From: an uncultured Spirochaetaceae bacterium
Lineage (GTDB): Bacteria; Spirochaetota; Spirochaetia; Sphaerochaetales; Sphaerochaetaceae
Direction of reading: 5' to 3'
NCBI GenBank assembly: GCA_944389145.1
Contig: CALXLH010000023.1
Coordinates: forward strand, 1 to 64,000
DNA: 64,000 bases
Position numbers and translations under genes: made by a program. Below, piece by piece: positions 18,061 to 33,367 of the stretch; the first letter of the stretch is position 1, and the number at the start of each line of letters is the position of its first letter. The notes under the pieces are model-generated. The model was not told the DNA's origin. It saw nothing but the letters and a program-made list of their open reading frames with translations, and did no database searches.

Positions 18061-18333
18061 ATGGAATTCTATTCTGCAAGAGAACTCAGAACCAATATGA
18101 AATCAATCTGGAAAGAGCTTTCAGAAGACAATGATGTCGTCATAACGAACAATGGGAAACCATGTGCCCTGATGGTGGGAATCCCGGAAGGACGGTTTGA
18201 GGAGACCGTACGAGCCCTCAGGCAGGCCAAGGCGATAGCCGCAATGGACAGGATGAGGAGAAAGGCGGAAAAGGACGGCTTCATGTCTGACCAGGAGATT
18301 GATGAAGCAGTAAAAGAAGCGAGGAAAGCGTGA
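18061..18333 (+). CDS. Antitoxin of the Phd/YefM family
   Basis: This 90-residue protein starts MEFYSARELRTNMKSIWKEL and contains DDVVITNNGKPCALMVGIP-like residues typical of the Phd/YefM DNA-binding domain. A Glu/Lys/Arg-rich C-terminal tail would wrap the toxin. It should bind the operators upstream and neutralise the PIN toxin. GGAGGA is five bases before the ATG. The toxin start (GTG) overlaps its stop by four bases. Confidence 0.88.
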   Translation: MEFYSARELRTNMKSIWKELSEDNDVVITNNGKPCALMVGIPEGRFEETVRALRQAKAIAAMDRMRRKAEKDGFMSDQEIDEAVKEARKA

Positions 18334-18722
18334 ACGTCGTCATTGATACGAATGTGCTGGTATCGGCAATGTTGTCACCTGGACGGAAGGCTTACGGAAT
18401 AATTCAATCTGTCATTTTCGGCGATTTCCAATTGATATACGACTTCAGGATCATGGACGAGTATGTCCAGATGCTGCATTATGGGAAATTCGGTTTCGAT
18501 GAGGATGACATCGCTGATTTCCTGTCACCAATAAGGGAGCACGGCCTCCAGATAGCGGTGCCTCCGATGAAAGATGTGGCATTCAGCGATGAATCAGACA
18601 GGAAGTTCTTCGAGGTTGCGAAGGCTTCTGGAGCCGTCCTAGTAACCGGGAATATGAAGCATTTCCCTAAAGATCCGATAGTCATGAGCGTATCTGACTT
18701 CTATGAAAGGTTCCTCAATTGA
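18330..18722 (+). CDS. PIN-domain toxin (ribonuclease)
   Basis: The 130-residue protein starts at a GTG in a GTGA overlap with the antitoxin. PIN-domain acidic residues are visible: Asp6 (VIDTNVLVSAM), Glu44 (MDEYVQML), Asp87/Asp90 (DESDRKFFEVA), then LVTGN. It fits the PIN_3 group of putative toxins, which cleave RNA with divalent metal. It forms a complete toxin-antitoxin operon just downstream of tRNA-Thr, a common entry point for accessory DNA. Confidence 0.88.
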   Translation: MNVVIDTNVLVSAMLSPGRKAYGIIQSVIFGDFQLIYDFRIMDEYVQMLHYGKFGFDEDDIADFLSPIREHGLQIAVPPMKDVAFSDESDRKFFEVAKASGAVLVTGNMKHFPKDPIVMSVSDFYERFLN

Positions 18723-18969: not shown

Positions 18970-19545
18970 TCAGATGATTGCAAGCATTACCCCTAATCCT
19001 CTGTATTCGTTATACGAAGGAAATATTGGAATCTGATAATAGATTCCGATTGCCATGTTGTAATGCCGCGCGAATTGGAATTCCGTAACTACCTTCGGCC
19101 TAAGCATCAGCCCATTATGCGCAAGGAATATTCCTGCAGCAGGATCTTGAGGTATCTCCGCATATTGCATGAAATATCCTATATCCAATCCAAGATATGT
19201 ACGCGTACGCCACACCTGCATGAATTTCCAAGAGAAAGTAATACCTGGCTCGATCGAAAACTCGAGGGAAGCCGCTCCTCCCTGCCCTCCTAACGGACTG
19301 AGATAATAGTCTCCGATAGCATAGATTTCGAATTTGAAGGAATCGGTCTTTATGCCAAGATCGATTCCTCCTCCAACCGCGAGGGAGTTGCTCCTGACCA
19401 TGCTCACGCGGCCAAATAGGTCATATGTAAACTCCGGCTTCTCTGGCGGCATTTCCCACCATTCAAGCTCACTGGCAGATCCTTCAGCTGCGCTGACCGG
19501 CATTATGGAGAGGCAAAGCGCAATCAAGACAATAAGGAATCTCAT
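18970..19545 (-). CDS. Small outer-membrane beta-barrel-like protein
   Basis: The 191-residue product has a signal peptide (MRFLIVLIALCLSIMPVSAA). The rest is made of alternating hydrophobic/polar strands with many Tyr and Gly (FEIYAIGDYYLSPLGG, TYLGLDIGYFMQYAEI, NMAIGIYYQIPIFPS), ending GVMLAII. This suggests an 8-strand-type barrel of the outer membrane. It is the last gene of a four-gene operon and overlaps the preceding lipoprotein gene by four bases. Family and function are unknown. Confidence 0.72.
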   Translation of the reverse strand: MRFLIVLIALCLSIMPVSAAEGSASELEWWEMPPEKPEFTYDLFGRVSMVRSNSLAVGGGIDLGIKTDSFKFEIYAIGDYYLSPLGGQGGAASLEFSIEPGITFSWKFMQVWRTRTYLGLDIGYFMQYAEIPQDPAAGIFLAHNGLMLRPKVVTEFQFARHYNMAIGIYYQIPIFPSYNEYRGLGVMLAII

Positions 19546-20153
19546 ACGCCCTCCTCCTCTGATGCATCAGCATCCGAAGAATCAGGATCTTCTGATTCTC
19601 CAGGATCTTCAGAAGGCTCTTCCGTATCCTCTCCTGGATCCTCGGTATCTTCATCGCTTCCTCCAGAAATCTCATCAGGGAGGATGGATTGTATCGAATC
19701 AAGCTTATCTGCAGATCCAATATACTCGAACTCAAAGTTCTTTGAGCTATCATCGGCGTCAGTGACAAGCGTCAAGGAAACAGGCCCTGAATTCCTATCG
19801 CATGTCCAATCAAAGAGGAATGTATTCTGTCCTTCTTTCATGACTAAACCACTTATAGCATCAGGAATCTCTCCATCAGGTACTGTAAATACAATGGATC
19901 CGTCAGCTGATATGAAATCATAGGAATGCAAGGATATATCGTATGTACCATCAATCCTGACCTGATACTGGCTACTCGATGAGATAAGCTCCACATATAT
20001 GAACGTACCATCCGCCTTAAGCGCAAGGGCACCATTATCAAGGACAGGATTCGAGTAAGCTGGCATGGCATAAGAGCCAATCACTGGATTTGGTATTGAT
20101 TGATTACAACCGATTAAAAGCAATATCGGAAATGCAAGAAAAATCCTTCTCAT
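19542..20153 (-). CDS. Lipoprotein with acidic repetitive tail
   Basis: A lipoprotein signal (MRRIFLAFPILLLIGC) is followed by a beta-rich domain of about 140 residues (ADGTFIYVELISSSSQYQVRI, ...). A low-complexity Asp/Glu/Pro/Ser/Gly tail of about 40 residues ends the protein, with repeated EDPGED/EEPSEDPGE blocks. The tail may be a flexible or metal-binding spacer. It starts one base from the end of the upstream fibronectin-repeat lipoprotein and overlaps the barrel gene by four bases (ATGA), so the whole set is one operon. Function is unknown. Confidence 0.75.
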   Translation of the reverse strand: MRRIFLAFPILLLIGCNQSIPNPVIGSYAMPAYSNPVLDNGALALKADGTFIYVELISSSSQYQVRIDGTYDISLHSYDFISADGSIVFTVPDGEIPDAISGLVMKEGQNTFLFDWTCDRNSGPVSLTLVTDADDSSKNFEFEYIGSADKLDSIQSILPDEISGGSDEDTEDPGEDTEEPSEDPGESEDPDSSDADASEEEGV

Positions 20154-22430
20154 TCATAACCCCAGATTATTCGGATCTACATCCTCAGCGGCTCTTCCAG
20201 TCTGCGTAACAGTATAAGTACCTACAAATTCCTGACTTCTTACACTTATGTTCTCAAAGCCGATTGAGGCAGGATACCACCCGGTTATCGTGATAGCTCC
20301 TGTGCAGGATCCCGTTCCATTATAATCGACATCCATAACATAGCTTCCATTTATCTTCATGAAAGAAGTCTCTCCAAAGTCCTTATACTGGAACGTAATA
20401 TGACCTCCGATTCCTGCAATTGATGCAGAATATCCAATCGTACCGCCGTCTCCCTGTATACTATCCTGACTGATGACTGCCCCATTTGTCAGGCTTCCTG
20501 GGCCAGCTTCATTCACCTTAGAATAAATACTGCTATCCTTCCATCGCTGATTCAACCCAGATGATCCCGGATACTGCGTAAGCAAGGCCGTGTCAATATA
20601 TTCCCATGGCTTCAGGCAATAGACCTGCATAGCCTGGATAAGCTTAGCTCCTGTCAATGCGCTATAACCGGAATCTATCTTGCTCCACTCGCCTTCCCTG
20701 CCTATCTTATCGACTCCTTGTATGGCGATCCAGCACTGCCTGCCAAAATCAGGGGTATACAGATCGTTGAGTATGGCCATATCCTCACCATTGGCATATT
20801 CAGAGAACGTCGCGGTCTTTTCGATATATCCTTCAGTGTCTATGCTGGACGGCTCCGTCGTCCAGATCCTGACATTGTAATAGTCAACACGGTTATCGAT
20901 CTTCATCGTTGCCGCAACGGGATACAGACCTCCAGATGCAGTCATTCCAGAGGTAAAAAGATTATCTGACACATTATAGCTATCAGGAGCATCAGGCCGG
21001 CCGAAGCTTATGACCTCATAACCACCTAGCTCAGTATCGCAAAGATATGCGCTTAACTGCGAACCATTCCATGTAGCAACGGTGAAGTATTCATAAGATG
21101 TCGTCCCACCGCTTATAGAACGCGTGGCAGAAGAGTATTCAAACTCTACGGTCCTGTCAGATTCAGAGACAGGAATCTCAAGGAGATTAGCCCATGTGCC
21201 GCTAGCAGCATCTGATCTTCCATATACGACATACTTCCAATCAGAATGTCCCTCATCCGATGCGCCAAGCGCATCGACTATCGTGAATGTGAATCTGCTT
21301 GGGTTCTGAAGGATATTCACAGATGCTGGATCTACCGTAGGCGGAGAAAGCAGGAATCCTGAGGCAATCGATGGATCTCCATTCGCCGTAACGCCATTTA
21401 CCTCTCCTATCGCCCTTACGCTATATGAATACTCTACTCCAGGCTTTAGGTTCGATGTATCGACATAGCTCATCCGCCCTCCGGATTCAGCAGGTTGATC
21501 ATTACCAGCCACAGTGGAATAAATCCTTCGTTCTGATTCACCGTCGGAATAGCGATAGATTTCCCAATCAAAGGCCTTAGAAGGATCGTCATCAGGATAC
21601 ATAGCTTCCCAGGAGAGGGTTATCGAAGTTAAGGAATCACCTCTTGATGCTGTGAAATCAACAGGAGCCGAAGGCGCACCAGGAATACGGGTATATCCTA
21701 CTCGTCTTGAGCCGGGCTCACTGCTTTCCCCAGAATAGGATACAGAAACAATCCTGAAGAATATCGACTGACCGTAATACTGCGTATCAGGGTAGAAATC
21801 AAAGGTATTCGTATTCCAGGAAATAATATAATCATCGGCATCAAGGGAAGTAGGCGTAGCCGTATTCCAGTCACCATCATATCCGGTAGTACTCCACTGG
21901 ATCCTATATCCGCGGATATTCTCGAGAGGAGACCACTGAAGCCTTATGTACTCCTCTGATTCACCCTGAGTAGCGGTAAGATCAGATGGGGCGGCAAGCA
22001 GCCAGCCGAATGTGATATCAGAGAAAGAGCCGACCAAGTCAACGATAGAGAAACTTCTGGCTCTTACGCGATAAGCATATACCTTTCCCACCTCTACATC
22101 ATTATCCGTATATGACGTTCCTGTAGGCGCATCTGCAAGCCTTTCCCATTCCAGTGATTCCTCATCCACTTCGGTTGATCCAGCCTCTGCCCTGTATACC
22201 TCGTAATAGTCAGCGCCATTAACGCCGTTCCAGCTTATGATTATCCGAGAGGAGTTAGACGCCTTCGTCGCAAATACCGCAGTTGGAGCCGTACCTGTGA
22301 AATCAAGGCTTGATGATGTTTCTCCAGTCCCTGTTCCATAATCAACAGAGCTATCATCCCAGATGGAAAGATTGCAGGATGAGAATAAAACGATGAAAAA
22401 AGATATTAGAATAAGACTTACCTGCTTCAT
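20154..22430 (-). CDS. Large lipoprotein with fibronectin-III-like repeats (758 aa)
   Basis: It has a lipoprotein signal (MKQVSLILISFFIVLFSSC). About four to five fibronectin-III-like units then follow, seen as repeated A-P-x-x-x-x-A-T/S-x(8-12)-I-x-L-x-W then a Y-x-V/I-x-R/W strand (for example near APTAVFATKASNSSRIIISW, APSDLTATQGESEEYIRLQW and APVDFTASRGDSLTSITLSW). The last about 180 residues form a different domain ending in GTYTVTQTGRAAED, which resembles the end of the adjacent 1245-residue protein. It is probably exported and surface-exposed or periplasmic, in adhesion or carbohydrate binding. That role is inference; no catalytic motif is visible. Confidence 0.8.
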   Translation of the reverse strand: MKQVSLILISFFIVLFSSCNLSIWDDSSVDYGTGTGETSSSLDFTGTAPTAVFATKASNSSRIIISWNGVNGADYYEVYRAEAGSTEVDEESLEWERLADAPTGTSYTDNDVEVGKVYAYRVRARSFSIVDLVGSFSDITFGWLLAAPSDLTATQGESEEYIRLQWSPLENIRGYRIQWSTTGYDGDWNTATPTSLDADDYIISWNTNTFDFYPDTQYYGQSIFFRIVSVSYSGESSEPGSRRVGYTRIPGAPSAPVDFTASRGDSLTSITLSWEAMYPDDDPSKAFDWEIYRYSDGESERRIYSTVAGNDQPAESGGRMSYVDTSNLKPGVEYSYSVRAIGEVNGVTANGDPSIASGFLLSPPTVDPASVNILQNPSRFTFTIVDALGASDEGHSDWKYVVYGRSDAASGTWANLLEIPVSESDRTVEFEYSSATRSISGGTTSYEYFTVATWNGSQLSAYLCDTELGGYEVISFGRPDAPDSYNVSDNLFTSGMTASGGLYPVAATMKIDNRVDYYNVRIWTTEPSSIDTEGYIEKTATFSEYANGEDMAILNDLYTPDFGRQCWIAIQGVDKIGREGEWSKIDSGYSALTGAKLIQAMQVYCLKPWEYIDTALLTQYPGSSGLNQRWKDSSIYSKVNEAGPGSLTNGAVISQDSIQGDGGTIGYSASIAGIGGHITFQYKDFGETSFMKINGSYVMDVDYNGTGSCTGAITITGWYPASIGFENISVRSQEFVGTYTVTQTGRAAEDVDPNNLGL

Positions 22431-22433
22431 ATC

Positions 22434-25400
22434 TCACCTGCTAGGACTGATGAATGGTCGAATTATATCTTCACGATCCACAATCGATTCGGCAGCTTTT
22501 CCATCAATGGTGATAGTGTATACACCTTTATCTGTACCAAATGTGCCATAATTATCACCATTGAATTCTTTGGTATAATCACTGAAAAGGGGGAAAATAT
22601 TCTTATAATTTATTTCTGCATTATAGTAACGATTATCGGTCATAGAAACATTTATTGTACCATTTCCATTATAACCAATTAAAATAAGATAATCAGTGCT
22701 TATTGTTGATCCATCACTCCCCTCATCAACATCAAACTGAATGTTTGATGTTGTGGAAAGTGATATGGCATTATTAAATCCAGTATATCCAGTTAATGTG
22801 AGATAATTTTCTGAAGGATTATAGTCCATTTGAAAACCATCTGAATGCAAATGGATTTTTACAGTCTCATCATAATAAGAAAGATCTCTAGTGTCACCAG
22901 TTAGTCCCGCATATAAAAACCAATCGCTATAAAGATCTCCATCAGCATCACCTAAGGGTGACTGTAACATTTGATTAACAAAAACGATATACTCTTCCGC
23001 CTTCAGCTCTCGTGTCACCTCTGTATCATTGCTTACAGGATTGGTTTCCTTGTTTTCGCTATCAATAGCTGTGATCGAATTAGTGAAAGTAAGTGAATCC
23101 TTCATCGTTCCATGGGTGTTAGGATCATTGTATGTGTAGATACCATCGCTGTAGCCAAGATAGCCTGGCTGACTGCTGTCCTTTATGTCCCAGCCATCAT
23201 CCGAATGGACATCTGTGATATCAAGCTCAACGCCTACTCCGCCATCAATGGAATTGTGCAACATATACCTTGTCGCACCCTTAACGGCAGGCCATGTCAT
23301 TCTGATGTACGGCTGGTATTTCCCATCTGTTTCGACGGTCTCAACGGTTAGCGAAGATGGTGCAACGAGGGAGTATCCAAGATTAGCATCCTCAGATTCA
23401 CCGAAGACATTTTCTGTCTTCCTAAATCCGTTCTGATAAAGGGATTCATCACTTCCCTTTACGGATTGGACACTATAGTAATAATCCTTGGATCCAGTAA
23501 TTGCTGCATTATCGGTAAATGTTGTTCCAGTAACCTGTTTTTCTACAAAGGTACCATCAATAATCAGGTTCCCATCAGATCCTTTGGTATAGCGCTGGAT
23601 GTTATATGAAGTTGCATGAGGATTGCTATTCCATGTAATCCTGATAGCATCGATCAGTCCACCTTTTGTTGCCTGTATATTTGCAGGAGGTCCGAAAAGG
23701 GATCCTTCGACTTCATTTATCTTTCCCAGAAGATTTGTCTCTGCATCGGTATCAGAGGTCTGTTCTTTTACAGGAAGAACCTTGTAGTAATACGTTGCAG
23801 ATAATGGTTCAGGATTCGCTTCAGAAGGACTCATTGAAGCAATAGCAGTATCTTCATATTCAAGCTCGCCGCTCATCCCTGATGTGACATTGATCTGCCC
23901 TTCAAGCTTATTGAACTTCTCATTCGAATTAGGCTCGGACCTGTAAATAAGATAATGGCCTGTGCCGTTCACATGATTCCATTTCAGGGTAATCGTATCT
24001 GGGCTCTCGGCTAACGTCGCAGTAAGATTCATACCTGCAATACCGAAGACGCATCCCTGATCAACATCAGATTCAATATATGCATCAGAGTCTGTCTTGA
24101 TCTGCTCCTTATTGTATGCACGGACCTTGAAGTCATAGACCGTTCCATTCGTATCATCACCAGCAGATGAAATCTCACCTGAATTTGATGTAGAGGTTGA
24201 CACCTTCTTCCAAGCATCATCGCCCTCTTCAAGTCCCTTCTGATATACTTCGTATTCGATGTTTTCCGAGGTCTTTCCTTTCCAGCTGAAAGCTATCTTA
24301 TCAACATAATCACCATCAGAGGCAGAGAAGGATTCGGGCTTTGTCAGAACTCCGCCCTTGACCTGTTCAGGAAGATTCTGTGTCAAGGAATCCGTTGTTG
24401 ATGATGTTCTGGTGCATGATATCCTATAGCTTAATTCCTTATCAGCATCCAGCATCACATACCGCTTATTACCATCTTCCTTAACATCATTGAGAGCAGA
24501 GCCTGTACCATTGTCTATGGAAACAGAGAAAGAGTATGTAGCATCTGTATCCTGCAAGGCGCTATCGCTCATCTCCCATTCCAGTCTTACGACTCCAATG
24601 TAATCCGTTGTGGCAGTCAGTGATCCTTCCTTGATGAATTCAGTATCGATCTTCGTTCCGAGAGAGACGAAATCATTATCTGTTCCTGATACTGAATTCG
24701 AAACTGTGAACGAATTGACTTCTTCACCGTTGAATACCTGAATGAGCGTAAATCTATATTCGTGATAATCCCCATCAGTATTTTCCAAGGTAAGGGTATC
24801 AGAATAGCTCGCTGATGCAACATCCCTCGTAGAATATGATGTATTACCTGACAGCTGATCCCAATCGCTTATCGAGATCTTCCAGCTAACGCCATCTTCA
24901 GCTTCCGGGGGATTATAATTCCAGCTTATTTCAATGGTTGCTGATTCGGTAGATTGTCCGGACACCTTGAATACAACGTTCTCAGGGATCCATAGCTTCC
25001 AGCCAGCATCAGAAACGACCTTATCCTTATCATCAGTCCCTTCATAGATTACTGCCCCATCTGCATTTCCATAGCCATTGGTGATCCTATACTGATACTT
25101 GGTATTGTCTTCCACCGACGTGTCTATCCAGGTAAATGATGTGCCATTCCCTGATACACCAGCGGTAGCATTATTCTCACCAAGCAGTACGACCGACCAA
25201 TCAGATGTTCCGGCAATGCATCTCTCCACCTTGAAGGCATTTGTAACATTAGTAAGATTGGCAGGCTTTCTTGGGGCAATCCATGTCACCTCAATTCCAT
25301 CTGCAAGGGTTCCGTGTGATGCCGCTACGCTAGTTATCGGCTGAGGATTAAGCGTTGAATCCGTCAAAACCGGATAATCAATGCTATACGGAGTATTTAT

Positions 25401-26171
25401 TACTGCGCTTTCCCCTTTTGCTCCTTCATACACATTCATCTCAATGCGGAAATAAACAGTAGAATCAACTCCGAATGCATACTCGTCAGTTGAAAGCGAG
25501 ATCGAAAAATCCGTGATATCAGACTTTGCGGTCTTCCAGTCAGGGGACTGTGTAGGATCTCTATACAATATAGAGAAATCATATTCATAAAGGGATTTAT
25601 TCTGTTCAAGTATGGAAAAGATATTCGGAACACTCCAATAAAGCATTACCTCATTTGCATTGGCTATTCCAGAGATATCTATGCTGTTCCTGGATGTAAG
25701 TGTTCCACCCTCTACGAACTCGCTTGGCTCTGAATACAGCAGACCCAAAGAAGAGGTCGCATCAGATGGATTGCGAACAGCGATCACGGAGAATACATAT
25801 CCCTTATTTCCTGACTGATTGAATGAATACTCAGTCGTACCGGAAGAAAGGCTTTGCACAAGTGAAAAGCCTCTTTGCTGAAGATCCGAAATCGAGGATA
25901 AGGACTCTCCATCATCCTCTATCGTTCCATATTTCGTATTCTCTATTCTCCATACCTGATAACTCGTTGCATTCTCAACAGGATCCCAGGAAACAGTAAT
26001 CGATCCTTCATAACCATTACTCGCCTTTACATTCTCTGGCGCATTAGGAGCCCCGTTTGGATTATATTCCTCCATTGGATCCATCGGAGGAGAGGCTGGA
26101 CAGGATATGAAAACAGTAGCCGCGAAAACAGTAAGAACGAAAAGGCAGATATATGTATGAAGCCGCTTCAT
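22434..26171 (-). CDS. Very large lipoprotein with about nine fibronectin-III-like repeats (1245 aa)
   Basis: It starts MKRLHTYICLFVLTVFAATV and has lipobox VFISC. At least seven and perhaps nine fibronectin-III-like units follow, each with a P-x-N/S-x-x-A-S-x-G start and an I-x-V/I-S/T-W strand (APENVKASNGYEGSITVSW; KPESFSASDGDYVDKIAFSW; PPANIQATKGGLIDAIRITW). A C-terminal domain of about 190 residues starts at EEYIVFVNQML and ends GVYTITIDGKAAES, similar to the neighbouring 758-residue protein. The gene is visibly more AT-rich than the core genes around the region. It is first in its operon, behind the palindromic promoter at 26243-26308. Function is unknown. Confidence 0.8.
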   Translation of the reverse strand: MKRLHTYICLFVLTVFAATVFISCPASPPMDPMEEYNPNGAPNAPENVKASNGYEGSITVSWDPVENATSYQVWRIENTKYGTIEDDGESLSSISDLQQRGFSLVQSLSSGTTEYSFNQSGNKGYVFSVIAVRNPSDATSSLGLLYSEPSEFVEGGTLTSRNSIDISGIANANEVMLYWSVPNIFSILEQNKSLYEYDFSILYRDPTQSPDWKTAKSDITDFSISLSTDEYAFGVDSTVYFRIEMNVYEGAKGESAVINTPYSIDYPVLTDSTLNPQPITSVAASHGTLADGIEVTWIAPRKPANLTNVTNAFKVERCIAGTSDWSVVLLGENNATAGVSGNGTSFTWIDTSVEDNTKYQYRITNGYGNADGAVIYEGTDDKDKVVSDAGWKLWIPENVVFKVSGQSTESATIEISWNYNPPEAEDGVSWKISISDWDQLSGNTSYSTRDVASASYSDTLTLENTDGDYHEYRFTLIQVFNGEEVNSFTVSNSVSGTDNDFVSLGTKIDTEFIKEGSLTATTDYIGVVRLEWEMSDSALQDTDATYSFSVSIDNGTGSALNDVKEDGNKRYVMLDADKELSYRISCTRTSSTTDSLTQNLPEQVKGGVLTKPESFSASDGDYVDKIAFSWKGKTSENIEYEVYQKGLEEGDDAWKKVSTSTSNSGEISSAGDDTNGTVYDFKVRAYNKEQIKTDSDAYIESDVDQGCVFGIAGMNLTATLAESPDTITLKWNHVNGTGHYLIYRSEPNSNEKFNKLEGQINVTSGMSGELEYEDTAIASMSPSEANPEPLSATYYYKVLPVKEQTSDTDAETNLLGKINEVEGSLFGPPANIQATKGGLIDAIRITWNSNPHATSYNIQRYTKGSDGNLIIDGTFVEKQVTGTTFTDNAAITGSKDYYYSVQSVKGSDESLYQNGFRKTENVFGESEDANLGYSLVAPSSLTVETVETDGKYQPYIRMTWPAVKGATRYMLHNSIDGGVGVELDITDVHSDDGWDIKDSSQPGYLGYSDGIYTYNDPNTHGTMKDSLTFTNSITAIDSENKETNPVSNDTEVTRELKAEEYIVFVNQMLQSPLGDADGDLYSDWFLYAGLTGDTRDLSYYDETVKIHLHSDGFQMDYNPSENYLTLTGYTGFNNAISLSTTSNIQFDVDEGSDGSTISTDYLILIGYNGNGTINVSMTDNRYYNAEINYKNIFPLFSDYTKEFNGDNYGTFGTDKGVYTITIDGKAAESIVDREDIIRPFISPSR

Positions 26172-26213: not shown

Positions 26214-26246
26214 AAAAAAGACACTTCCATCAACTTTGTTGGAAAG
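26214..26246 (-). terminator. Hairpin with T-run between the two surface operons
   Basis: On the minus strand CTTTCCAAC-AAA-GTTGATGGAAG (one bulge) is followed by TGTCTTTTTT. It would end readthrough from the 29.3-26.4 kb operon. The -10 box of the next promoter lies inside the upstream arm, so transcripts starting there would lack a full hairpin and escape termination. Confidence 0.55.
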
Positions 26247-26308
26247 TATCATAAATAACATATAATAGCAAGTTATCGAACAAAAAACTGCATTTCTGTT
26301 CGATAACT
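26243..26308 (-). promoter_or_regulatory. Palindrome-promoter element, copy 1
   Basis: AGTTATCGAACA (26271-26282) and TGTTCGATAACT (26297-26308) form a perfect 12-bp inverted repeat with a 14-base spacer. On the minus strand it touches TTGCTA (26266-26271), followed after 17 bases by TACTTT (26243-26248). The same arrangement occurs upstream of the lipoprotein gene at 29342. A dimeric activator or repressor bound next to the -35 is the simplest reading. Confidence 0.7.
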
Positions 26309-26351
26309 CCAGAACATAATCAGGCAAATGTCTAAAAATATCCAAAAGCTC

Positions 26352-27623
26352 TCATATGCTGCAGCCAACCTTGAAGCCAAAGGCAAGCCTGTCGAGGCGA
26401 GATGAAAGCTCGATATCAAGATCATTCCATTCCAGACCGACTCGAAGGCTTCTATACTCTACCTTCGCGCTTACCGTCATATCCTCATTGATATCATAGC
26501 CAAAGTACAGCTTAGGAATGATCCAGTGATCATAGATGTAGTTATCAAGGGAACAGGCCCAGACTACCTGTGAGACGGCATCGCTCAGCTCGACTCCAAG
26601 ATGATAAGGCCCCAGATCGTAAAGGACAGAGAATGACAGGTCTGGAGGTGTCAGGTAGAGGTTCCTGTCATAGTGAAGCCTAAAGCCATTCATTATATCC
26701 TCGGCAGTGAAGTACCAATACGTACGCAGTGCCGGAATATCCCTGAGATCGACCATGAAGGCAAGTTCCTCATTCATACGGTACATGACGCCGAGATTGA
26801 ATCCAAGGCCGAAGCCTGCGTTATACCTGTTGGATGCCAGTGCCCCGATCACGTCCCCGTTCAAGCGTGCAGAGAGATAATCTCCATTGGTAAGGGAAGT
26901 ATCAAAGAAGAATCTTGGGGACAAGGAGAATCCAACGGAGAGCCTATCCTCTATGATATACTTCGCATACCCGATATCGGCACCTGCCGAGATATACAGC
27001 TCATTACCATAGTATTTGTTCGCATACCCGTAGCTATACTGGTCCAGAAGATCGTCTGCTCCATCGAATCCAAGGTCAACGATCCACTTCAGGCCAAAGC
27101 CCTCCTTTATCGCTCCCCAGCTGAAATCCATGAGGATGTCAAAGTCATTCGGAAGATAGCCGTGGGGAAGCAAGGCCGGATCAATAGAGAGGAGCGCCGC
27201 CAAGGCAAGTGCCTTGTCATTATCGGGAAGGGTGTCAAATCCACCCTCATCAGCAAAATACTCCCTGACGAAATATGCCGTCTCGGCATCTGTATGCCCA
27301 GCTGTTGGGAAGTTTCTATCAAAATCAAAGGCTGCCGCGATGCTCTCATAGTTGGAAGCTATGAATTCGTCGCTCAGGCCCTGCATAGCCTCGCCAAGAT
27401 GGCTCATGCCATCCTTCAATGCATCAACGGGATCTGCAAGGAACATCATGCCATTCACCGCAGACGATGCATCAAGGCTCATTGAGAAGTTCGACTCCTC
27501 CTCTATCTCAATAAGCCTTGCAGGACTGCGGAAGGTATCAGAGGTGAAGGACAAGGAAGGAACCGCGGCAGACAATGAAGAGGCAATCAAAAGGAAACAG
27601 GATAAGATAGCTAATCTCTTCAT
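26352..27623 (-). CDS. Predicted outer-membrane beta-barrel protein (423 aa)
   Basis: A signal peptide (MKRLAILSCFLLIASSLSAA) leads into an N-terminal, partly helical region of about 150 residues. A long series of amphipathic strands follows (ELYISAGADIGYAKYIIED, LSVGFSLSPRFFFDT, GFGLGFNLGVMYRM, SFSVLYDLGPYHLGVEL, MTVSAKVEYRSLRVGLEW), ending FGFKVGCSI. This looks like a PorV/FadL-like or DUF5723-type outer-membrane barrel, but I cannot name the family with confidence. It is the second gene of a two-gene operon after the lipoprotein, four bases apart. Confidence 0.75.
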   Translation of the reverse strand: MKRLAILSCFLLIASSLSAAVPSLSFTSDTFRSPARLIEIEEESNFSMSLDASSAVNGMMFLADPVDALKDGMSHLGEAMQGLSDEFIASNYESIAAAFDFDRNFPTAGHTDAETAYFVREYFADEGGFDTLPDNDKALALAALLSIDPALLPHGYLPNDFDILMDFSWGAIKEGFGLKWIVDLGFDGADDLLDQYSYGYANKYYGNELYISAGADIGYAKYIIEDRLSVGFSLSPRFFFDTSLTNGDYLSARLNGDVIGALASNRYNAGFGLGFNLGVMYRMNEELAFMVDLRDIPALRTYWYFTAEDIMNGFRLHYDRNLYLTPPDLSFSVLYDLGPYHLGVELSDAVSQVVWACSLDNYIYDHWIIPKLYFGYDINEDMTVSAKVEYRSLRVGLEWNDLDIELSSRLDRLAFGFKVGCSI

Positions 27624-27626
27624 TGC

Positions 27627-29342
27627 TTACTCTCCAATATACTGCATGGGAAAAGTCCATTTCTCATCTTCATTAGTTGCATTTGGATTTGAATACATCC
27701 CTAAAGAAGCTGTTGAATCTCCTTTATTTTTGAAATTGATTGATGTAATCAAATCAATATCTTCTACCATATCAAAAGAGGTATTTGTTGCTGTTTCTCC
27801 AACACTTGTCTTCGTTCGAACAACTGTTTCCACATAATCGCTGTTCTTTCCGGCAATAGAATTTGAAATTGTCCAGCTTGAAATCAGAGAAGCTCCCATA
27901 TTTCCAAAAAGGCCATCCTTCCAATGATTATAATTCCATCCATATGCCTCATTGGCATTTGCATATTCAGCATCAGGATTTTTAAAATTGATGGTTATCT
28001 TCTGTAGTTCGTCCAACGGCTTATCGATCAGAGGACATATCTGATATTCCTTATCACCGTCTATCGCATAGATGTAATACTTATATCTTGGAGACTCTGT
28101 CGCCTTATCTACTCGGATAGTGAATGTCCTTTTCTCATCGCCTTCCGGCGCAGTCCATCTATACATTCCTTCGAAGCTTCCGGTCGTGACTGTATCAAGA
28201 GGGATATCCACGGAGGCAAGGCCGGATGTGACAGTGATCGTCGGGGCATCGTATTCAGTAAGGCTTTCCAGCCCGGATATCACTGCAGTTGCCGTGTTGC
28301 CGGATATCGTTATATCCACACCATCACCGATACTTGATGATCCGCTCAGGCCAGCCACGTCGGAAGAGACCTGGAAGCTGATCATATGATGCTGCCTGCC
28401 TGTCGTCGTCCTTGAGATTTCAGGTACAGAGGAGTAATAGGCGAACTCCTCAGACTGCGCGGCATTGCCATTCCCATCCTCTGCGAATATCTGGAATGTC
28501 CCTATATCAAAGGAGGGAAAGAGGGATGCAGGGAATGTATGGGTCTCTCCTGATACTCTCTCCTCCTTTATGGTGATATCCGGCTCCCCTGCCTTGACAA
28601 GCCTGATGGACGTGAATCCTTCAGGAATGCCTGCGACCTCTATATCCCTCGTAGCCTCATCGATATCCACCGTGATGGCAGCATACTGCCCTATCATGAC
28701 CTCTGCAGTCAGGGGACCGTAGTCCGCATCTTCCCTGTACTTATGGTAAATAGTCGCGGAATAGGACTTAGCCGGATCAAGGCCTGAGATGCTGATGGCA
28801 GATGCCGATGATGTGATAGCCTTCCCCTCTATCGTGATTCTGTACTGCATGTCTGGCTCAGGAGCGTCGATGATGGTTATGACAGCCTCGGTCTCATTCC
28901 TTTCCGTCACCTCTGCCTTAGGAGCTATGGTGCTTATCTCAGGACGTACATATGGCGCGCTTATCGTGAAAAGCTCCGTCCATGCATCAGGGGAAAGGGA
29001 TGATGAGGCAAAGAATCTCAAAGAGACAGATGATGATTGTCTGATGGTTCCATCAGGAAGCTCCACGTATGCCTTGTATGTGCCATCCTCCAGGACCGGT
29101 GAGAGCCGGATCTTCTCCTCGCTGCCATCCAGGGATATCGCATAGGTCCTTGCCCCGGAGACAGGCTTGAACGAGAGGCTGATGCCTCGCCTGTCATTGG
29201 ATGCGGTCATATCGATCTCCTCTGCATCTGCTGCGATTGTCACATCTTCCTTTGGAATGGTTGTCTCCTCGATTGGAGAGCATGAGACCGTAAAGATAAG
29301 AAACAGGAAAAGCATTCCGAAAAAGGTTAATCTTCTATTCAT
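27627..29342 (-). CDS. Lipoprotein with fibronectin-like domains and a C-terminal paralogous module (571 aa)
   Basis: The ATG at 29342 is chosen over 29363 because AAAGGA lies eight bases upstream and it gives a clean lipoprotein signal (MNRRLTFFGMLFLFLIFTVSC). Several beta-sandwich units follow (ISLSFKPVSGARTYAISLDG; AVITIIDAPEPDMQYRITI; ITVDIDEATRDIEVAGIP). The last about 210 residues (GLESLTEYDAP, TTGSFEGMYRWTAPEG, RYKYYIYAIDG, AYGWNYNHWKDG) are homologous to the C-terminal part of the lipoprotein at 10242-11198. It heads the operon with the barrel gene. Surface location is inferred and function is unknown. Confidence 0.8.
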   Translation of the reverse strand: MNRRLTFFGMLFLFLIFTVSCSPIEETTIPKEDVTIAADAEEIDMTASNDRRGISLSFKPVSGARTYAISLDGSEEKIRLSPVLEDGTYKAYVELPDGTIRQSSSVSLRFFASSSLSPDAWTELFTISAPYVRPEISTIAPKAEVTERNETEAVITIIDAPEPDMQYRITIEGKAITSSASAISISGLDPAKSYSATIYHKYREDADYGPLTAEVMIGQYAAITVDIDEATRDIEVAGIPEGFTSIRLVKAGEPDITIKEERVSGETHTFPASLFPSFDIGTFQIFAEDGNGNAAQSEEFAYYSSVPEISRTTTGRQHHMISFQVSSDVAGLSGSSSIGDGVDITISGNTATAVISGLESLTEYDAPTITVTSGLASVDIPLDTVTTGSFEGMYRWTAPEGDEKRTFTIRVDKATESPRYKYYIYAIDGDKEYQICPLIDKPLDELQKITINFKNPDAEYANANEAYGWNYNHWKDGLFGNMGASLISSWTISNSIAGKNSDYVETVVRTKTSVGETATNTSFDMVEDIDLITSINFKNKGDSTASLGMYSNPNATNEDEKWTFPMQYIGE

Positions 29343-29369
29343 CGATATTCCTTTCCCACCCATTAAGGT

Positions 29370-29435
29370 ACAGTAGCATAGAAAGCATGCAAAAGCAAGT
29401 TATCGAACAAAAAGCGGCAATTTTGTTCGATAACT
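29370..29435 (-). promoter_or_regulatory. Palindrome-promoter element, copy 2
   Basis: A 15-bp perfect inverted repeat (29398-29412 and 29421-29435; arms AGTTATCGAACAAAA and its complement, 8-base spacer) adjoins minus-strand TTGCTT (29393-29398). After 17 bases comes TACTGT (29370-29375). The transcript start would lie about 20 bases before the ATG at 29342. The inner 12 bp and the TTGCT-17-TACT[G/T]T spacing match copy 1 at 26243-26308. The divergent gene at 29532 could also be controlled from here. Confidence 0.75.
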
Positions 29436-29531: not shown

Positions 29532-30281
29532 ATGAAGAAGCTCATGACTATATTCTTGCTTGCTGCCCTGATGGCCCTTCCGGCCTCCGCCGAGTTCGTT
29601 CCGATCGTTCATGATGATGTGATCTACATACTTGATACTGAGACAGGAGAGACTCCTGCGATGATAGCGGAAGGCGCGAGATTCGAGATCTTCGATAGCA
29701 GGGAGTACATGGACTGGTTACTGGACTTTCAGGTCCCAGACTGGCTCAAGGGAACATGGATGATAGACGATGAGGGCTACATCAGCTTCTCTGATGATGA
29801 CATCGTAGCAAATGGAGAATCCTTCAAGCGAAATGCCGCATCCTATCTCCTGGAGAATGGCGATTACCAGACCATGCATAAGGCGGGGAGCCTAGTAACG
29901 GATGACATGTTCCTGCTTCAGGCAGACAGAAATGATAAGCAATATTTCCTGAAGACTGCCAATCCCAATCTCATAGTCATGACATTCGATTATCCTTCAT
30001 CGAGATATGAAAGCAATCTTCTGTTCAAGGCCGGCCATCCATATGGCTCTACCCTCTTCTTTCCCTCATGGATGCAGGGAGCATGGCAATCTGATGCCGG
30101 AGTCGACGTGATCATCACATCGGGAGACTTCCTTGTTGATGGCAATTCGTTCGCAGAGGATATCCTTCAGGAATCTCTCATGTGGGTTGATGGGCTTCCC
30201 TATCTTTCAGGCGATGCAAGCATCAGCGAGGATGAGTCCGGAGCATATATTCGCTATTATGCATGTTGCAAGGATGGATGA
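29532..30281 (+). CDS. Exported protein with an internal duplication, function unknown
   Basis: The ATG at 29532 gives a clean signal peptide (MKKLMTIFLLAALMALPASA). The earlier ATG at 29475 would bury it. The 249-residue product contains two similar segments: VPDWLKGTWMIDDEGYISFS through DDDIVANGESF, and FPSWMQGAWQSDAGVDVIIT through SGDFLVDGNSF. Each has a W-x-x-G-x-W-x-x-D start and an N-G-x-S-F end, so it is a tandem-domain protein. The first motif resembles small extracytoplasmic beta-barrel modules. It is divergent from the lipoprotein operon across palindrome copy 2. Confidence 0.75.
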   Translation: MKKLMTIFLLAALMALPASAEFVPIVHDDVIYILDTETGETPAMIAEGARFEIFDSREYMDWLLDFQVPDWLKGTWMIDDEGYISFSDDDIVANGESFKRNAASYLLENGDYQTMHKAGSLVTDDMFLLQADRNDKQYFLKTANPNLIVMTFDYPSSRYESNLLFKAGHPYGSTLFFPSWMQGAWQSDAGVDVIITSGDFLVDGNSFAEDILQESLMWVDGLPYLSGDASISEDESGAYIRYYACCKDG

Positions 30282-30419: not shown

Positions 30420-30455
30420 TAAAAAATATCCGGACCGATCACTCAGTCCGGATAT
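30420..30455 (-). terminator. Terminator of ppdK
   Basis: On the minus strand a 10-bp stem ATATCCGGAC/GTCCGGATAT with a 10-base loop is followed by a T-run. It may also stop the convergent gene at 29532. Confidence 0.88.
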
Positions 30456-30472
30456 ATTCTCTGATATCTTGA

Positions 30473-33175
30473 TCAGTTCTTGCCTGCGTTGATCGCAGCC
30501 TGCGCCGCAGCAAGGCGTGCTATAGGCACCCTGAACGGTGAGCAGGATACATAATCAAGTCCCACGGACTGGCAGAACGCGATCGACTTCGGATCGCCTC
30601 CATGCTCTCCGCAGATACCCATCTTCATGCCAGGCCTCGTCTCACGCCCAAGCTTCACAGCCATCTTGATCATCTTGCCGACACCATCGAAATCGATCGT
30701 GGCGAACGGATCATAGGCATAGAACTGCTTGTCCGGATCGTTGACGTAGTGCGAGAGGAACGATGCCGCATCATCGCGAGAGAAGCCGCAGGTCATCTGG
30801 GTCAGGTCATTCGTTCCGAATGAGAAGAACTCAGCTTCCTTAGCGATCTCGTCAGCGGTTATCGCAGCACGCGGAACCTCGACCATCGTTCCGATCTTGT
30901 ACTCGACCTTCAGGCCCTGCTCATCGAAGACCTTTTCGATGACCGCGAGCGCATGCTTCTTGCAGAAGTCGAACTCCTTCCAGATGCCCACGAGAGGGAT
31001 CATGATCTCAGGATGGACATCCACGCCCTGCCTCTTGACGGTGATGGCAGCCTCGATGATCGCCCTGACCTGCATCTCAAGGATCTCAGGGTACACGATC
31101 GCAAGACGGCATCCACGGAAGCCAAGCATCGGGTTGAACTCCTGGAGAGCATTGATCTTCTTGGAGATCGCCTCGACAGTCGTCCCAAGCTGGAGAGCCA
31201 TCTCATGGCGTGAGGTATGGTCGTTCGGCAGGAACTCATGAAGCGGCGGATCGAGAAGGCGGATAGTCACAGGAAGTCCCTTGAGCTCACGGAAGATCCC
31301 GATGAAGTCCTCCCTCTGCATCGGCAGAAGCTCGGAGAGCGCGATCTGTCTCTCACCGTAGGTATCGGCAAGGATCATCTTGCGCATCGATATGATCCTC
31401 CTGCCGCCGAAGAACATATGCTCGGTGCGGCAGAGGCCTACGCCCTCGGCACCAAGCTGGACAGCGTGATGGGCATCCTGAGGAGTATCAGCGTTGGTGC
31501 GTACCGCCATCGTCTTGATCTCATTCACATAGTCCATGAACTTCCTGTAGTTCTGGTAGAGGATGGAATCATTCTCGTTCATCGTACCATCAAGGACCTG
31601 CATGATCTCGGAAGGCTTCACTGGGATCTTCTGGGCATACACTGCACCTGTAAATCCATCGATGGACATATAATCACCCTCAGAGAGGATCTTTCCATCG
31701 ACTTCCAGGGTCTTCTTGATCTCATCCACATGGATCTCGCCGCAGCCGGATACGCACGGGCAGCCCATGCCACGGGCAACGACCGCCGCATGGCTGGTCA
31801 TGCCGCCACGGCAGGTGACGATACCCTTCGATACGGCCATTCCGCCGATATCCTCAGGGCTGGTCTCCGTCCTGACAAGGAGGACATCCTTGCCGAGCGC
31901 GGCCGCATCCTCCGCTTCCTTGGCGGTGAAGTAGATCTGGCCGCATGCGCCTCCCGGGGATGCGTTAAGGCCATGTGTCGTCTCCTTGAGGTTAAGCTCC
32001 TTGATGTAGTTGTTATCAAGGATAGGAGCGAAGAGCTTGTTGAACTCGGATGCAGGAACGCGGGAGACAGCCGTCTTCTTATCGATCAGGCCCTCCTCAA
32101 CCATCTCCACCTGGCTTCTGAGCCATGCGAAGATCGTCCTCTTTCCGCTCCTGGTCTGAAGCATGAAGAGCTTGCCTTCCTGGATCGTGAACTCGATATC
32201 CTGCATATCATGATAATGGCTCTCAAGGATCGAGCGGATCTTGCAGAGCTGATCATATACGCCGGGATTGACCTTCAGGAGCGTGTCGAGCTTCTGCGGA
32301 GTCCTGATGCCGGCCACGACATCCTCTCCCTGGGCATTCATGAGGTACTCGCCATAGAACTTGTTCTCACCCGATGACGGATCGCGTGTGAACGCGACAC
32401 CGGTACCTGAAGTGTCACCCATGTTGCCGAAGACCATCGACTGGACGTTGACGGCCGTTCCAAGAAGTCCCCTGATATCATTCATGAGCCTGTACTTGAT
32501 GGCCCTGTCATTGTTCCATGACCTGAAGACAGCATCGATCGTCTTGAACAGCTGGTACTCCGGATCTGTCGGGAAGTCCTCTCCCGTAGCCTTCTTGTAG
32601 ATAATCTTATAGCGCTTGATGACCTCCTTGAGGTTGTCCACATCAAGCTCCGTGTCGAAATGCTTGCCGTTCTCATCCTTAACGGACTGGAGCGCATACT
32701 CGAACTGCGCATGCGGAACGCCCATGACGACATCGCCGAACATCTGTATGAAGCGGCGGTAGCTGTCCCATGCGAAGCGCTCATTGCCGGTCTTCTTTAT
32801 AAGAGCCTGGAGCGAGTCGGGATTCAGTCCGAGGTTGAGGACCGTATCCATCATGCCCGGCATCGACTGCGCGGCGCCGGAACGTACGGAGACAAGCAGA
32901 GGATTCTCCTTATCTCCGAGCCTGGCGCCCATCATATCCTCAAGCCTCTTGAGGTTCTCAAGTACCTCTTCCCTCATGCCCTCAGGATAAGCCTTATGAG
33001 CATCCCAGAAGGCACAAGCCTCTGTCGTGATGGTGAATCCGGGAGGAACCGGAAGGCCTATGGAGGTCATATCGGCAAGATTAGCGCCCTTGCCTCCAAG
33101 AAGGCCCTTCATGTCTGCAGATCCTTCAGCCTTACCATTGCCGAAGAAATAAACGTACTTCTTTTTCTCTGCCAT
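30473..33175 (-). CDS. ppdK: Pyruvate, phosphate dikinase
   Basis: PPDK interconverts pyruvate + ATP + Pi with PEP + AMP + PPi, and in fermentative anaerobes usually runs in the glycolytic, PPi-using direction. All domains are present over 900 residues. The N-terminal ATP-grasp part has GGKGANLADMTSIGLPVPPG and SVRSGAAQSMPGMMDTVLNLG. The swivelling phosphohistidine domain has GGMTSHAAVVARGMGCPCV with the catalytic His. The PEP-binding barrel has FFGTNDLTQMTCGFSRDD-type and MGICGEHGGDP sequences with the catalytic Cys. AAAGAAGA precedes the ATG. It is a single-gene unit. Confidence 0.98.
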   Translation of the reverse strand: MAEKKKYVYFFGNGKAEGSADMKGLLGGKGANLADMTSIGLPVPPGFTITTEACAFWDAHKAYPEGMREEVLENLKRLEDMMGARLGDKENPLLVSVRSGAAQSMPGMMDTVLNLGLNPDSLQALIKKTGNERFAWDSYRRFIQMFGDVVMGVPHAQFEYALQSVKDENGKHFDTELDVDNLKEVIKRYKIIYKKATGEDFPTDPEYQLFKTIDAVFRSWNNDRAIKYRLMNDIRGLLGTAVNVQSMVFGNMGDTSGTGVAFTRDPSSGENKFYGEYLMNAQGEDVVAGIRTPQKLDTLLKVNPGVYDQLCKIRSILESHYHDMQDIEFTIQEGKLFMLQTRSGKRTIFAWLRSQVEMVEEGLIDKKTAVSRVPASEFNKLFAPILDNNYIKELNLKETTHGLNASPGGACGQIYFTAKEAEDAAALGKDVLLVRTETSPEDIGGMAVSKGIVTCRGGMTSHAAVVARGMGCPCVSGCGEIHVDEIKKTLEVDGKILSEGDYMSIDGFTGAVYAQKIPVKPSEIMQVLDGTMNENDSILYQNYRKFMDYVNEIKTMAVRTNADTPQDAHHAVQLGAEGVGLCRTEHMFFGGRRIISMRKMILADTYGERQIALSELLPMQREDFIGIFRELKGLPVTIRLLDPPLHEFLPNDHTSRHEMALQLGTTVEAISKKINALQEFNPMLGFRGCRLAIVYPEILEMQVRAIIEAAITVKRQGVDVHPEIMIPLVGIWKEFDFCKKHALAVIEKVFDEQGLKVEYKIGTMVEVPRAAITADEIAKEAEFFSFGTNDLTQMTCGFSRDDAASFLSHYVNDPDKQFYAYDPFATIDFDGVGKMIKMAVKLGRETRPGMKMGICGEHGGDPKSIAFCQSVGLDYVSCSPFRVPIARLAAAQAAINAGKN

Positions 33176-33361: not shown

Positions 33362-33367
33362 ATGGAT

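Follow-up and report, generated by a model that had tools for sequence, protein, structure and literature searches.

The CIRCE element takes the form TTAGCACTC-N9-GAGTGCTAA, and regulators of the MntR/DtxR family are associated with short contiguous palindromes. Among other described operators, the PurBoxes of the Firmicutes are an AT-rich pair in inverted orientation, each box centred on CGAA and 14 bp long, which lie 16-17 bp apart and immediately upstream of the -35 box (PMC8789054). The BirA biotin operator comprises 9-bp inverted arms, TTGTAAACC-[N14/15]-GGTTTACAA (PMC545781), and the AraC/XylS family regulator RhaS recognises two separated half-sites at rhaBAD, the proximal one of which reaches the -35 box (PMC12858550). 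Two 38-base palindromes in the window, the whole 64-kb stretch of DNA analysed here, can be compared with each of these. The closest resemblance in both sequence and position is to the PurR/PurBox system, with which they share the CGAA centre, the AT-richness and the inverted arrangement of the boxes, and their place next to the -35 box on its upstream side. However, the gap between CGAA and TTCG is 18 bp here and approximately 26-27 bp in the PurBoxes (computed from the description in PMC8789054), 9-bp core arms with an N14 spacer replace the longer and differently spaced boxes, and the targets are surface proteins rather than purine genes. The geometry of the BirA operator, 9-bp arms with a spacer of N14/15, is likewise found here, but its half-site is TTGTAAACC-like whereas that of the window is TATCGAACA, and no biotin genes were seen among the downstream genes, which code for lipoproteins, outer-membrane proteins and an OPT transporter. 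AraC/XylS sites such as those of RhaS at rhaBAD are similar in having separated half-sites on opposite strands, proximity to the -35 box and an activator logic, but differ in half-site length (16-17 bp) and sequence. HrcA/CIRCE is comparable as a long inverted repeat with 9-bp arms lying upstream of operons in few copies per genome, while its arms, spacer and targets differ. The general traits of transcription-factor operators, namely symmetric half-sites, fixed spacing and a position upstream of related genes across species, are all present. Literature searches for the half-site returned nothing relevant, and the element is thus undescribed in the searched literature but ordinary in kind, representing a new operator and regulon. 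One gene regulator very probably binds the palindromes, and a probability of roughly 0.85 can be assigned to the view that they form the operator of one envelope-protein regulator in the genus. What the sequence itself provides is the operator, its near-strict N14 spacing, the independence of its half-sites and its position before homologous surface-protein genes in many species.

Both palindromes are exact, with perfect 12-bp arms and a 14-bp spacer (Table 1), as described in the first-pass annotation, and a whole-window inverted-repeat scan places both (I3 and I4) near the top in strength. No palindrome pair of this kind was obtained in 100 dinucleotide shuffles of the window. The geometry relative to the minus-strand boxes, with TTGCT adjoining the palindrome and TACT[G/T]T at exactly 17 bases, was also confirmed to be the same in both copies. 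The reported lack of a third copy in the window was borne out, and no further copies, whether of the 24-base or of the 18-base form, occur at up to three mismatches in the genome of this organism (G000; 2.13 Mb in 42 contigs, 95% complete). The description of the two copies as independent proved overstated, as the promoter regions look duplicated. Since 30 bp of promoter DNA (73% identity) and the spacer (71% identity) are alike between the copies, the two copies may have originated by local duplication. The independent support for the palindromes comes from other species, rather than from the two window copies.

Table 1 Coordinates of the predicted operators, adjoining boxes and neighbouring genes in the window
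Feature	Position	Strand	Remarks
Operator 1	26271..26308	.	AGTTATCGAACA-N14-TGTTCGATAACT; core TATCGAACA-N14-TGTTCGATA at 26274-26305; core kept in relatives
-35-like box TTGCTA	26266..26271	-	One base common to operator 1; position fixed in relatives
-10-like box TACTTT	26243..26248	-	17 bases after TTGCTA; TGa before; weak consensus match
P0001, 1245-aa lipoprotein with fibronectin-III domains	22434..26171	-	First gene after operator 1
P0002, 758-aa fibronectin-III lipoprotein	20154..22430	-	Probable same operon as P0001
203-aa lipoprotein-like ORF	19542..20153	-	Probable same operon as P0001
191-aa exported protein	18970..19545	-	Probable same operon as P0001
Operator 2	29398..29435	.	AGTTATCGAACA-N14-TGTTCGATAACT; core 29401-29432
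-35-like box TTGCTT	29393..29398	-	One base common to operator 2; position fixed in relatives
-10-like box TACTGT	29370..29375	-	17 bases after TTGCTT; TGc before; weak consensus match
P0003, 578-aa lipoprotein (lipobox, fibronectin-III-like)	27627..29363	-	First gene after operator 2
P0004, 423-aa exported, probable outer-membrane protein	26352..27623	-	Second gene of P0003 operon

The products of P0001-P0004 are predicted to be surface proteins on the basis of their lipoprotein signals and domains. P0004 shows weak similarity to FadL/TodX, and an AlphaFold model of this protein alone was set aside given its mean pLDDT of 32. Operator 1 sits between P0004 and P0001. Additional control of the divergent gene at 29532, initially put forward as a possibility, is unsupported. 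The neighbour at this position differs in relatives, being an unrelated divergent gene in G035 and a co-directional gene in G004, and a consensus promoter scan found no promoter-like boxes adjoining the palindrome on that side. Several other features of the surrounding DNA can be recorded. A strong inverted repeat (AAAATATCCGGACCGA/TCAGTCCGGATATATT; window 30423-30458), likely a bidirectional terminator, lies where the 29532 gene and ppdK converge, between their ends. The surface operons adjoin the pyruvate phosphate dikinase gene (window 30473-33175) in several species (L115, L124, L133, L156 and L157), a sign of either conserved synteny or a site that surface-gene cassettes favour, and in some species a MntR/DtxR-like gene and a sigma-factor-like gene occur nearby. 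A plus-strand 130-aa ORF (window 18330-18722) with an N-terminus resembling a PIN-domain toxin and a 90-aa ORF just upstream (18061-18333) form a possible toxin-antitoxin pair, as judged by eye.

Homologues of P0003 are found in 32/48 genomes of the genus and those of P0001 in 25/48. In G004 and G035, the palindromes in the flanks first revealed TTATCGAACA..TGTTCGATAA before the counterparts of these two operons. When the arms were set to 8 bases and the spacing was left free between 12 and 20, 12/13 sites, those of the window included, had the same spacing; one of the twelve, in a genome of another family (G062), differs in its inner bases and may be due to chance. At up to two mismatches, the core TATCGAACA-N14-TGTTCGATA occurs at 44 sites in 24/48 genus genomes, against four sites for a reversed control pattern, and it is also present in three genomes of the sister genus. 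These sites lie upstream of P0003-like operons, P0001-like fibronectin-III lipoprotein genes and other lipoproteins, an outer-membrane protein gene beside enolase in several genomes, and a gene for an OPT (peptide) transporter, which is divergent from a beta-barrel gene in G018 and also carries a site in G025. A few matches fall inside coding sequence instead, and those checked within housekeeping ORFs are of the kind expected by chance. Furthermore, loci chosen by protein homology and not by motif revealed additional, weaker sites before the same gene families. Half of the genus genomes are without the motif at this stringency, and the genome-level association between the motif and the lipoprotein homologues is not significant (Fisher p = 0.22-0.45). 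Only the core is kept among the relatives, the outer arm bases being variable, and exact 10-bp arms had no match outside the own genome when sought in 99 relatives. A search for the 10-bp-arm pattern in 84,980 genomes gave nine unrelated matches, a number near chance, with assorted spacers and none with the inner spacing of 16 seen in the window, and the core had a single match in viral contigs, inside a coding region.

The genome-wide search that the first-pass annotation had called for thus returned two copies in the genome and sites located mainly upstream of genes in the genus. A generic repeat would be expected in many copies, placed at random or at convergent 3' positions; such a distribution was looked for and seen in neither. 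The proposal of one regulator for both operons is strongly supported by the genus-wide palindrome, its N14 spacer and its same position before homologous operons. In the relatives, the predicted regulon extends beyond two operons. The two identical inverted-repeat sites bracket a 3.1-kb segment with one operon, an arrangement which would also suit the ends of a mobile element, or of a segment that inverts or moves by recombination. This is the least probable of the readings weighed here, given that in many genomes only one site is present, in front of a gene, that such sites occupy unrelated loci and combine a strict N14 spacing with a variable spacer sequence, and that no recombinase was seen immediately beside the sites among the window ORFs.

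A motif scan of 672 kb of fetched loci and the window yielded 57 matches with a spacer of 14, against 0-3 at each other spacer length between 8 and 21, although many of the 57 are training sites and the weight rests on the added ones outside the training set. The half-site consensus is A-G-T-T-A-T-C-(G/T)-A-A-C-A, in which CNAACA is nearly invariant, with the qualification that site selection at up to two mismatches inflates half-site conservation. The half-site centres are 23 bp apart, or approximately 2.2 helical turns. Between species or paralogues the arms are 94-100% identical, compared to 19-42% for the upstream flanks, and in the P0003 promoters of three species the operator and the first promoter bases form an island of identity in diverged DNA. 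The likeness of the two window promoters could also be accounted for by a mere duplicated promoter region with no regulator, but the conservation of the arms next to flanks at background identity, and the occurrence of sites before unrelated genes, render this very improbable. The promoter-proximal half-site is better conserved than the distal one (35 versus 13 sites; Wilcoxon p = 1.6e-4). Arm substitutions are overwhelmingly one-sided and pair-breaking (35), with only two that are compensatory. The half-sites therefore vary independently, as would be expected of a protein-bound DNA operator and not of an RNA hairpin, terminator or repeat. Together with the symmetry, the near-fixed spacing and the location before related genes, this points to an operator recognised by a symmetric protein. 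This imbalance largely refutes the reading of the palindrome as a transcribed RNA element, acting as a 5'-UTR hairpin or terminator, in spite of a terminator scan which flags both copies (stem of 16-17 pairs) and the location of site 1 downstream of P0004. Site 2 does not follow a gene end, no T-tract follows the palindrome and many copies lie upstream of a predicted -35 box, leaving such an element a slim prospect indeed.

A protein binding the operator as a dimer, or as a pair of dimers, would read the two inverted CGAACA-type half-sites, and in the window would set transcription of the P0003-P0004 and P0001-P0002 operons together. As sigma-70 promoters the window boxes are weak, matching 6-7/12 consensus positions, and neither promoter was listed in the consensus promoter scan at its 9/12 threshold. 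Each -10-like box is preceded by TGn. The TTG of the -35 box starts exactly at +3 after the core in 19/46 sites, where the mean is 1.6 per offset; the proximal half-site hence adjoins the -35 box at a fixed position in about 40% of sites. Common ancestry of the promoters may explain part of this fixed geometry. The regulator may recruit RNA polymerase to these weak promoters as an activator centred near -54. Activation is favoured at the sites abutting the -35 box, where the operator lies outside the core promoter at a fixed distance, where weak promoters are involved and where the proximal half carries the most weight, and an activator is accordingly rated the most likely form of regulator at these promoters, at about even odds. 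Repression comes next, as a tentative second choice, in which the same operator would be bound by a repressor at or just upstream of the -35 box, occluding or wrapping the promoter until a signal releases it, as does PurR in Bacillus, where the similarly placed PurBoxes repress (PMC8789054). Motif and gene are separated by widely differing distances from one gene family to another, and in some genomes (L102, L132, L122, L134 and L145) the motif precedes the start codon by as little as 5-30 bp. In G020/G021, G001, G014 and the sister genus it is found at this distance or over the likely -10/-35 boxes, a position which suits a repressor but not an activator bound upstream of -35. Against repression stands the largest group of sites, where the motif is outside the core promoter at fixed spacing and the -10 boxes are weak. 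An automatic best-promoter search across the sites gave mixed positions, which again suits a repressor. A separate arrangement is seen in L104, L106, L109, L114, L120 and L125, where the operator centre lies at a constant distance of approximately 90 bp upstream of the -35 box of an outer-membrane protein gene, which has a strong promoter (TTGACA-N18-TACAAT) and is located beside enolase in most.

No regulator gene linked to the sites was found. PurR itself was rejected as a candidate, with no match to its N-terminal domain (PF09182) in G000 and none above the cut-off in the 48 genomes, in a search which detects the Bacillus subtilis and Lactococcus lactis controls; of two sub-threshold matches, one looks by eye like a WYL-type regulator and the other like an unrelated protein. 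AraC-type regulators occur commonly across the genus. In G001, where there are two sites, just one full AraC-type protein (674 aa) is encoded; it matches proteins of G000 and G011 through the HTH domain alone, and no full-length AraC-type orthologue is common to these three motif-bearing genomes. A common AraC-type regulator is thus unlikely, subject to the incompleteness of the genomes and the chance of non-orthologous replacement. In the own genome, one protein of 1043 aa (L226; G000:C17:29000-35000) carries an AraC-type DNA-binding domain at its C-terminus and looks like a large sensor-regulator. Many genus genomes encode proteins of approximately 1000-1090 aa with a domain of this kind, and those compared are 38-49% identical over their full length. 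Beside ppdK, some genomes keep the MntR/DtxR-like gene that lies at 33362 in the window, but the short contiguous palindromes of this family do not fit the element. In two species (L110:1994-2305 and L127:1953-2429), the OPT gene that bears an operator has downstream of it, in the same direction, a small gene of the XRE-type helix-turn-helix class, which is a possible regulator candidate.

A more far-reaching reading, which must be considered rather doubtful, is that a lineage-specific global regulator of the outer surface, belonging to a family with no characterised CGAACA-N14 operator, acts as a common switch for whole sets of surface lipoproteins and porins, in this diderm genus as well as in its sister, having dwindled in this species to one locus with two sites. 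With the operator of a single envelope-protein regulator as the preferred reading, the observation of two sites becomes a predicted regulon in some two dozen species. The 38-bp operator, its consensus and its target genes provide a precise handle on how a diderm genus may control the proteins shown to its surroundings, and naming the regulator would tie a signal to the cell-surface repertoire.
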